Assembly: GCF_000022145.1 (NCBI RefSeq)
Contig: NC_011891.1
Location: 2,244,001 to 2,308,000, forward strand
Direction: 5' to 3'
Length of the DNA stretch: 64,000 bases
Origin: Anaeromyxobacter dehalogenans 2CP-1
Lineage (GTDB): Bacteria; Myxococcota; Myxococcia; Myxococcales; Anaeromyxobacteraceae
A program made the translations under genes and the position numbers. Below, in pieces: positions 56,414-59,480 of the stretch (position 1 is the stretch's first letter; each line of letters starts with the position of its first letter). The notes under the pieces are model-generated. The model searched no databases and had not been told where the DNA came from. It worked only from the letters and a program-made list of their open reading frames with translations.

Positions 56414-56516
56414 CCCGGAGGAGGGGCGCACCGCGACCCACCCGACCCGCGGCGATCCGCGCCCCCGGGCCCGCGTGCGGCCAGCGGGCCGGCCGCGTAT
56501 GATCTTCCGAACAGCG

Positions 56517-57113
56517 ATGCTCGAAACCGGCGTCCTCGTCCTCAACCGGGTTTACCAGCCGGTACACATCACCTCGGTGCGGCGCGCGTTCACGTTGCTG
56601 TACCAGGGGGTGGCGAAGGCGCTCGACGAGCAGTTCCAGCTGTTCGACTTCGAGAGCTGGAGCGCGCTGGCCGCCGCCGCGGACCACGACTCCATCGGCA
56701 CGGTGGGACGGCGCATCCGGGTGCCGCGGGTGATCGTCCTGCTCGCGTACGAGCACCTGCCGCGGGCGCGGGTGCGCTTCTCGCGGTTCAACATCTATGC
56801 GCGCGACGAGAACACGTGCCAGTACTGCGGCCGGCGCTTCCGCCGCGCGGAGCTGAACCTGGATCACGTGGTCCCGCGCTCGCGCGGCGGGTCCACGAAC
56901 TGGGAGAACGTCGTCTGCTCGTGCGTGCGGTGCAACCTGAGGAAGGGCGGGCGGACGCCGGAGGAGGCCGGGATGCGGCTGCTGCGCCAGCCCACCCGGC
57001 CGCGCTGGACGCCCACGTTCCGGAGCCGGGCGCGGCGCGCGCTGTACCGCGAGTGGCGGCCTTTCCTGTCCCTGGCCGACGCCGCATACTGGAACGCCGA
57101 GCTGTTGGAGTAG
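56517..57113 (+). CDS. HNH endonuclease family protein
   Basis: 198 residues from ATG 56517. A zinc ribbon plus HNH motif occupies 101-145: C101-x2-C104, DHVVPRSRGG with D116-H117, NWENVV, and C136-x2-C139. The N-terminal 90 residues (VLVLNRVYQPVHITSVRRAFTLL) are typical of a widespread stand-alone HNH group not tied to restriction systems. TATGAT at 56498-56503 is a likely -10. Followed by the MinD-like gene, whose promoter overlaps the 3' end. Confidence 0.88.
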   Translation: MLETGVLVLNRVYQPVHITSVRRAFTLLYQGVAKALDEQFQLFDFESWSALAAAADHDSIGTVGRRIRVPRVIVLLAYEHLPRARVRFSRFNIYARDENTCQYCGRRFRRAELNLDHVVPRSRGGSTNWENVVCSCVRCNLRKGGRTPEEAGMRLLRQPTRPRWTPTFRSRARRALYREWRPFLSLADAAYWNAELLE

Positions 57114-57139: not shown

Positions 57140-58132
57140 ATGGGCGACGTGCCGACGCTCAAGCTGGTGAGGACCGTCCCGGAGCCGGAGACCCGGCAGG
57201 CCGGCCCGCGCCCCGACGTGGCCCGGGCCCGGCGCATCGTCGCGGTCGGCGGCGGCAAGGGCGGCATCGGCAAGAGCCTCATCTCAGCGAACCTGGGCAT
57301 CGAGCTGGCGCGGCGCCGGCGGCGGGTGGTGCTGGTGGACGCCGACCTGGGCGGCGCGAACCTGCACACCACGCTCGGCCTCGACGTCCCGAAGCGGACG
57401 CTGTCCGACTTCATCGAGCGGCGCGTGCCGCGCATCGACGACGTGGTCACGCCGACCGGCATCGAGAACCTGGGGCTCGTCTCCGGCGCGCTCGACCACC
57501 TCGACGCCGCGAACCCGCCCTACGCCCAGAAGATGCGGCTGCTGCGCCACGTCCAGCAGCTCGACGTGGACTACGCCATCCTCGACCTCGGGGCGGGCAC
57601 GCACACCAACGTGCTCGACTTCTTCCTGGTGGCCGACCACGGCGTGCTGGTGCTGGTGCCGGAGCCGACCGCGGTCGAGAACGCGTACCGCTTCGTGAAG
57701 GCGGCGTTTTGGCGGCGCATGCGGAACGTCGCGCAGGTGTACGGGTACGAGCCGCTGCTCCGGACGGTGATGGCCGGCGGCAACTTCCGCAGCCCGGTGG
57801 AGCTGGTGACCACCGTCAGCCAGCGCGATCCCGAGGCGGGCGCGAACCTGGCCCGGCAGCTCGCCGCGTTCCGCCCGCGGCTGGTGGTGAACGAGGCGCG
57901 CACGCCGCAGGACGCCGACGTCGGCAAGGCCGTGGTGGCGGCGTGGCGCAAGTACTTCGGGCTCGAGATGGATTATCTCGGGTTCATCCCCTACGACGAC
58001 GAGATGTGGCGGACGCTCCGCGCGCGCCGCCCGCTGCTCGTCGAGCGGCCCGACGTCCGGGCCGCCAAGGCCTTCGCCGGGATCGCCGACGCGCTGCTGG
58101 CGCTCGACATCGCGGCGCGGCACGAGGCATGA
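57140..58132 (+). CDS. MinD/ParA-like ATPase
   Basis: 330 residues. The deviant Walker A GGKGGIGKS is at 38-46 with the signature lysine K40; VVLVDADLGGANLH and YAILDLGAG follow as A' and B motifs. The C-terminal part is longer than MinD and lacks an evident MinD membrane-targeting helix; it is closest in outline to the FlhG/MinD group. It may position a structure or protein on a surface. Directly followed (1 base) by the J-like/HTH protein, its probable partner. Confidence 0.85.
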   Translation: MGDVPTLKLVRTVPEPETRQAGPRPDVARARRIVAVGGGKGGIGKSLISANLGIELARRRRRVVLVDADLGGANLHTTLGLDVPKRTLSDFIERRVPRIDDVVTPTGIENLGLVSGALDHLDAANPPYAQKMRLLRHVQQLDVDYAILDLGAGTHTNVLDFFLVADHGVLVLVPEPTAVENAYRFVKAAFWRRMRNVAQVYGYEPLLRTVMAGGNFRSPVELVTTVSQRDPEAGANLARQLAAFRPRLVVNEARTPQDADVGKAVVAAWRKYFGLEMDYLGFIPYDDEMWRTLRARRPLLVERPDVRAAKAFAGIADALLALDIAARHEA

Positions 58133-58133
58133 G

Positions 58134-59006
58134 GTGCTGAAGCGGCTCGCAGATCAGACCCTGTACGAGATCCTGGAGGTCCCACCCGACGCGTCGTCGC
58201 GCGACATCGCCGAGGCGGTGGAGCGCGCCCGCGCGCTCTACGGCCCCGGCTCGATCGCGACCTACACGCTCATGTCGAGCGAGGAGGCGTCGCTGCTCAC
58301 GCGGCGGATCGAGGAGGCGCAGTCCACGCTCCTCGACCCGGACGCGCGGCGGCGCTACGACGACCTGCTCGGCGACCGGTCCGGCGCCGCGAACGCGGAG
58401 ACGTCCGAGGCCGACGCCGGCGACCGCTGGCCCGCGCGCGTGCTCCCGCTCGTGCCGCAGCCGGATCGCGACGAGGCGCTGCGCGAGGCGGAGGCGAGCG
58501 CCGAGGAGTCCTGGCCGCTGCGCCCGGGCCACGTCGCCGGCGCGTCCGCGCCCACCCCGCCGCCGCCCGCGGACGGGCCCCCGCCGGTCCACCCGCGGCC
58601 GCCGCCCATCCCGCTCCGCCGCGAGGTCAGCGGCCCGGCCATGACGCCGGTGCCGCTGCCCTCCGTCGCGCAGGCGGGCCCCGAGCCCATCCCCCTGGTG
58701 AGCCCGGCCGCGCCGGGCGGCGCGCCGGCGCCGGAGGCCACCGCCTGGACGGGCGAGGTGCTGCGGCGCCTCCGCGAGGCCCGCGGGATCACGCTCCAGC
58801 AGCTCTCCGAGCGCATCAAGGTCACCCGCCACCACATCGAGAACATCGAGGGCGACCGCTTCGCGCTCTTGCCGGCGCCCGTCTACCTGCGCGGCATCCT
58901 CCTCAGCATGGCGCGCGAGCTGCGCCTCGACGGCCAGAAGGTGGCGCGCTCCTACCTCGAGCGCGTCACGGCGGCGACCGCCCCGGGCGCGCCGCGGCCG
59001 CGCTGA
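58134..59006 (+). CDS. J-domain-like / RodZ-type HTH fusion protein
   Basis: 290 residues, GTG start. Residues about 7-82 resemble a J domain (LYEILEVPPDASSRDIAEAVERARALY... AQSTLLDPDARRRYDDLL) but lack the HPD tripeptide, so no Hsp70 stimulation is expected. A Pro-rich disordered linker (about 85-200) joins a C-terminal helix-turn-helix of the RodZ N-terminal type (EVLRRLREARGITLQQLSERIKVTRHHIENIEG). No membrane segment follows, unlike RodZ. Coupled to the MinD-like ATPase gene. Confidence 0.7.
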   Translation: MLKRLADQTLYEILEVPPDASSRDIAEAVERARALYGPGSIATYTLMSSEEASLLTRRIEEAQSTLLDPDARRRYDDLLGDRSGAANAETSEADAGDRWPARVLPLVPQPDRDEALREAEASAEESWPLRPGHVAGASAPTPPPPADGPPPVHPRPPPIPLRREVSGPAMTPVPLPSVAQAGPEPIPLVSPAAPGGAPAPEATAWTGEVLRRLREARGITLQQLSERIKVTRHHIENIEGDRFALLPAPVYLRGILLSMARELRLDGQKVARSYLERVTAATAPGAPRPR

Positions 59007-59213: not shown

Positions 59214-59480
59214 ATGCCGCTCATCGACTCACCCGAGGCCGCCACGCGCCTGGCGCGGGCGATCTGCTCCGACGTCTCCCTCTACAACGAGGAGAAGATC
59301 GTCCGCGGCATCGAGCAGGACAACTTCTTCGACGCGCTGCGCGAGGAGCTGGAGGAGGGGCGCGAGCTGTACCGGTCGCGCGTCTCGCCGGACCTCTACG
59401 GCCGCACCAACTTCTACGACCGCGCCATCGTGGACGTGATCCTGAGGTCCAAGGGGCACGTGAAGTCCCGCATCTGGTGA
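59214..59480 (+). CDS. Conserved-looking small protein of unknown function
   Basis: 88 residues, acidic helical N-terminal half (ATRLARAICSDVSLYNEEKIVRG) then DLYGRTNFYDRAIVDVILRS and a basic end. No signal peptide, membrane segment or known motif. Well-formed composition and a good promoter argue it is real. Its stop overlaps the GTG of the RluD-type gene. Confidence 0.7.
   Translation: MPLIDSPEAATRLARAICSDVSLYNEEKIVRGIEQDNFFDALREELEEGRELYRSRVSPDLYGRTNFYDRAIVDVILRSKGHVKSRIW

Follow-up and report, generated by a model that had tools for sequence, protein, structure and literature searches.

A MinD/FlhG-class ATPase gene and an adjoining gene for a J-like/helix-turn-helix protein in Anaeromyxobacter dehalogenans and several bacterial phyla

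In the PomX/PomZ, ParB/ParA, MinE/MinD, and McdB/McdA systems, a ParA/MinD ATPase is adjoined by a dedicated partner with a modular cargo domain, and the known activators of such ATPases carry a short basic N-terminal extension, which is thought to reflect one common mechanism (PMC7993993, PMC10241942). A pair that likewise joins a ParA/MinD ATPase to a dedicated partner is found in the 64,000-nucleotide stretch of Anaeromyxobacter dehalogenans strain 2CP-1 analyzed here (the window; positions 2,244,001 to 2,308,000 of NC_011891.1, a genome that consists of a single contig of 5,029,329 bases). In window coordinates, its first gene (57140..58132, + strand, 330 amino acids, ATG start) encodes a MinD/FlhG-class ATPase, as judged from the open reading frame, Pfam matches, predicted model, and related folds. 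The second (58134..59006, + strand, 290 amino acids, GTG start) encodes a protein with a J-like domain, a linker, and a helix-turn-helix (HTH) domain of the HTH_25 family (here, J-HTH), as judged from the open reading frame, Pfam, and the predicted model. A sequence-only reading of this DNA had placed the two genes one base apart, which is indeed the distance between the stop of the former and the start of the latter. Its description of the partner as a J-like domain without HPD, a Pro-rich linker, and a RodZ-type HTH is borne out by both Pfam and the predicted model, and it was right to set the partner apart from ParB, MinC/E, and FlhF. No described function of the pair was found in the open-access literature.

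The family ATPase is encoded in 131 of the 174 Myxococcota genomes sampled for co-occurrence counts, and in 126 of those 131 the J-like domain is encoded directly downstream on the same strand, with a median of 35 bases between the model ends. Among the remaining five, G154 and G172 have, on closer reading, a divergent J-HTH next door, G137 and G143 carry the ATPase near contig edges, where only the upstream halves are judgeable, and G021 has the two genes on different contigs. In an earlier set of loci, restricted to the 89 with at least 1.4 kb of downstream room, 81 have an open reading frame with both J and HTH domains after the ATPase; some genomes are present twice in this set because they were returned by two tools. 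A scan of contigs with the ATPase as the query gave 355 relatives, of which 80 were retained. The pair is also found in Nitrospirota, Acidobacteriota, and SAR324. Strong J-domain matches (about 75 bits or more) were seen in ∼22 of the 148 Nitrospirota genomes and in 9 of the 149 from Acidobacteriota, with the ATPase upstream in those that were read, and a further set of weaker matches in Acidobacteriota proved to be fusions; ordinary HPD-bearing J matches in these three groups are not adjoined by the family ATPase. Such recurrence in Myxococcota and three other groups places the adjacency of the ATPase and J-HTH genes well beyond chance. The two genes have been passed on together in several bacterial phyla, and the linkage outside the source genome on which the sequence-only reading had made its proposal depend is very clearly there.

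The ATPase matches the ParA, CbiA, and AAA_31 entries of Pfam. Its deviant Walker A motif GGGKGGIGKS (57248..57277; signature Lys40 and catalytic Lys45) is invariant in the alignment (A1) except for Ser46, and the Walker A′/switch motif DADLG (residues 67 to 71; 57338..57352), which occurs in the longer form DADLGG, is invariant throughout. The protein therefore has both the KGGxGK[ST] signature and the DxD switch of the ParA/MinD family, with Lys40, Lys45, Asp67, and Asp69 all invariant. No NCBIfam model matched either member of the pair at its cut-off, and an assignment to MinD was rejected because the score against minD_bact is 73 bits, below the cut-off of 213. The predicted model of the ATPase (predicted local distance difference test [pLDDT], 84; predicted template modeling score, 0.83) has its best PDB matches by Foldseek in FleN/FlhG, including the FleN-FleQ complex, with target-normalized template modeling scores of up to 0.87. 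The fold, deviant Walker A, and switch motif are common to both, but the ATPase described here differs from FleN/FlhG in having an insertion of ∼50 residues, a J-HTH partner instead of FlhF or FleQ, and neither flagellar linkage nor an evident membrane-targeting tail. The insertion (residues 189 to 242) comes after the hallmark helix PEPTAVENAYRFVK (PEPTxxENAYRFxK; helix and insertion, 57659..57865), corresponds to a gap in the alignment with FleN, which lacks it, and is helical at residues 204 to 243 of the predicted model. The net charge of the ATPases is positive (median, +5), and their C-terminal tails are short, variable, and of low mean hydrophobicity, the latter value having no reference set alongside. 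A second group of ATPases (L271 to L278) aligns across the insertion and has no J-HTH neighbor; some of these are encoded near MotB or FliF or are followed by a small coiled-coil-like protein (FliJ-like by eye), and one (L273, 5465-6736) has a C-terminal PilZ domain.

In the partner, the J-like domain (58152..58379; Pfam, alignment, model, and Foldseek) begins ∼6 residues past the start codon and scores 27.6 bits against Pfam DnaJ, 0.2 under the cut-off of 27.8. It has the J fold and the flanking sequence in common with the J domains of DnaJ/Hsp40 proteins but is acidic (net charge, about −6), and its HPD motif is replaced by S[LI]AxY[ST]L, which reads SIATYTL in this copy (58251..58271) and is recognized from the alignment and the conservation of its Tyr. 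The Pro/Ala-rich linker (58392..58748) is predicted to be disordered, with pLDDT values mostly between 50 and 72, and ranges from 51 to 535 amino acids among relatives. The C-terminal HTH_25 domain (58749..58979; net charge, about +2) scores 66.3 bits in Pfam against a cut-off of 24.6. In the predicted model, the J-like and HTH domains are both folded (block pLDDT mostly 81 to 98), with the low-confidence linker between them, and Foldseek places the RodZ-type HTH 3fym first, followed among others by J domains and by 2wus_R, the RodZ chain of the RodZ-MreB complex. All of these matches are weak (E values of 0.018 and above, none at 0.001), as can be expected for two small domains within a long chain. 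The J fold of the partner is assigned from the predicted model. The HTH_25 domain and the LPxxVYLRG motif, which holds the MreB-contact positions, are shared with RodZ, but the score is far under the NCBIfam RodZ cut-off, the HTH of this copy is C-terminal, and the copies examined have no transmembrane or periplasmic part; a hydropathy scan of the Acidobacteriota partners found no transmembrane helix. The J-like domains are preceded by leaders of mostly 5 to 6 residues, about one of them Lys or Arg, and no positively charged disordered extension of the kind typical of ParA/MinD activators was found in them. In this respect the partner differs from PomX, ParB, MinE, and McdB, as only these 5 to 6 residues come before a folded acidic domain. 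Many of the leaders listed do have Lys at position 2 or 3, making a minimal charged “finger” possible.

The fate of the former HPD loop follows that of the ATPase. HPD is found in none of 85 ATPase-linked J-like domains versus 25 of 26 ordinary J matches. Where the Walker A Lys of the ATPase is intact, 118 of 124 partners retain the loop Tyr, compared with a single one of the 17 fused proteins and none of the 25 HPD-type domains; these figures refer to distinct sequences, not to independent events. Five genomes without the ATPase (G032, G037, G049, G101, and G107) retain the J domain with a destroyed loop; in six others (G010, G054, G055, and G140 to G142) the J domain was not seen and the HTH is kept. 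The HTH scores 75 to 103 bits in the ATPase-less genomes counted, a tally from which G139 and G144 (short contigs or contig ends) were left out; G054, G107, and G144 encode a more distant ATPase of the second group elsewhere in the genome. Loss of the loop and survival of the HTH once the ATPase is gone suggest that the loop acts together with the ATPase and that the function of the HTH outlasts it.

In 17 Acidobacteriota loci, the ATPase and the J-like domain share one open frame, separated by 12 to 20 residues, and the HTH lies in the same frame in all but the short locus L247. A further single-frame fusion of ATPase and J-like domain occurs in the myxococcote G052. The fused state requires about three changes on the tree, with several fused rows on long branches, and may have had a single origin. 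Of the 16 readable fused ATPases, 14 have Arg, Thr, or Val instead of the catalytic Walker A Lys, whereas all 124 readable distinct split pairs keep it (four more were unreadable), a pattern that can be interpreted as the exchange of an ATP-controlled link for a covalent one. These natural fusions make physical coupling likely, and coupling of the ATPase and the J-HTH protein is strongly supported.

As to mechanism, we give an even chance to a two-protein ATP switch made up of the MinD-type ATPase, its J-derived partner, and a tethered, cargo-binding RodZ-type HTH. In such a switch, the ATPase would dimerize on ATP and engage the N-terminal J-derived domain of its dedicated partner; S[LI]AxY[ST]L, in place of the loop with which true J domains trigger hydrolysis by Hsp70, would contact and probably stimulate the MinD-type ATPase; and the long flexible tether would connect this domain to the HTH holding the cargo, so that cycles of ATP binding and hydrolysis could determine the place or the time of cargo engagement. 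Binding, ATPase stimulation, and positioning are all inferred, and positioning, which the sequence-only reading had suggested for a protein complex or a DNA region, would follow by analogy with the ATPase family. The wider proposal, that a J domain has been retargeted from Hsp70 to a ParA/MinD-family ATPase, with the former HPD loop as the hydrolysis trigger and a mechanistically new class of activators in several phyla as the outcome, is one that we regard as tentative, its probability falling short of even.

The cargo itself can be named only as a preference. An MreB-type filament held by the RodZ-type HTH is a possible choice, favored at less than even confidence; DNA is a more doubtful one, though well within consideration. 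The RodZ residues in contact with MreB are F60 and Y64 (PMC4047632), and of the 54 HTH domains in which the matching positions could be read, all have Y/F at the first and 32 have F/Y at the second. Besides the partner, gene neighbors are not conserved between phyla and so offer no pointer to the cargo. Co-occurrence with the pilus protein PilM proved nondiscriminating (167 of 174 Myxococcota genomes).

Several observations weigh against the two-protein switch. In the draft genomes G013 and G018, the loop is intact although no ATPase was found (in the related G021, the ATPase is on another contig); the fused L253 and L279 retain the Walker A Lys but lack the loop motif; and L233 has the loop Tyr but not that Lys. 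The partial distance correlation with the ATPase is lower for the J-like domain (r of 0.22) than for the HTH (0.54) and, contrary to what would simply be expected, does not favor the former as the part that co-evolves. The J and HTH search models were made from ATPase-linked copies, so that their scores are biased against unlinked ones. On the side of the cargo, the residues at the MreB-contact positions may be a general trait of HTH_25 domains, and MreB itself, present in 168 of 174 Myxococcota genomes, is too nearly universal for co-occurrence to discriminate.

The alternatives differ mostly in what the HTH would do. It could bind specific or nonspecific DNA in a partition-like analogue of ParAB, with the ATPase moving it or loading it on the nucleoid and the J domain replacing the basic tail of ParB. 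The positive charge of the ATPase, its lack of an evident membrane-targeting tail, the abundance of the HTH_25 fold among DNA-binding proteins, and the position of the ATPase directly after a putative scpB, with scpA nearby, in about ten Nitrospirota loci are all in line with such a role; the ScpB link is confined to one Nitrospirota group, where Pfam names only the L091 copies, and the net charge of the HTH is merely about +2, leaving this alternative rather improbable. Still less probable in our estimate is regulation of the FleN-FleQ kind, in which the HTH protein would be a transcription factor and the ATPase its anti-activator, with no positioning at all. FleN, also in its complex with FleQ, is the structure that the ATPase fold matches best, and in several lineages the HTH outlives the ATPase, as a free regulator could, but FleQ is an AAA+ protein unrelated to the J-HTH partner, and the latter has no activation domain recognized by Pfam, a very long linker, and RodZ-type HTH signatures.

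The two other alternatives fare much worse. FlhG/FleN proteins being the closest solved relatives of the ATPase, it could be a flagellar FlhG with an unusual partner, but the distribution of FliF, found in 41 of the 174 Myxococcota genomes, does not match that of the pair: many pair-bearing genomes lack FliF, and some FliF-bearing ones lack the pair. The source genome also has a separate relative ∼38 kb from its fliF, and the two stand apart in the tree. The flagellar assignment was accordingly rejected, and this explanation is largely refuted and very improbable. Hardly credible at all is a co-chaperone whose J-like domain would recruit Hsp70, the neighboring ATPase being incidental; the J fold of the predicted model speaks for it, but the absence of HPD from every ATPase-linked copy, the acidic charge of the domain, and the tracking of the ATPase by the loop all speak against it.

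The surroundings of the pair also include a conserved 88-residue protein (MPLIDSPEAATRLARAICSDVSLYN...; 59214-59480) whose gene lies between those for J-HTH and an RluD-type protein and which has no match in Pfam or NCBIfam. It was found in 40 of the 81 loci searched, none of them in Nitrospirota or SAR324, and in L279 begins ∼7 bases past the fused gene. Upstream of the ATPase lies a gene for an HNH endonuclease-like protein (56475-57113), seen in 51 of 81 loci searched, including most Myxococcota loci; its nearest NCBIfam models, IscB and Cas9d, are all under cut-off. In the Nitrospirota locus L091, no base separates the scpB frame from the start of the ATPase gene, a layout shared by the related loci mentioned above, and in L134 and L142, from the same phylum, a DUF3047 gene is located upstream of the pair in divergent orientation.

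Many ParA/MinD ATPases are “orphans” whose partner is not known. The pair described here is widespread, has an obvious partner gene, falls outside the basic-tail rule, and permits a one-residue test. If the loop model is true, it shows how a chaperone domain can switch the ATPase that it serves.
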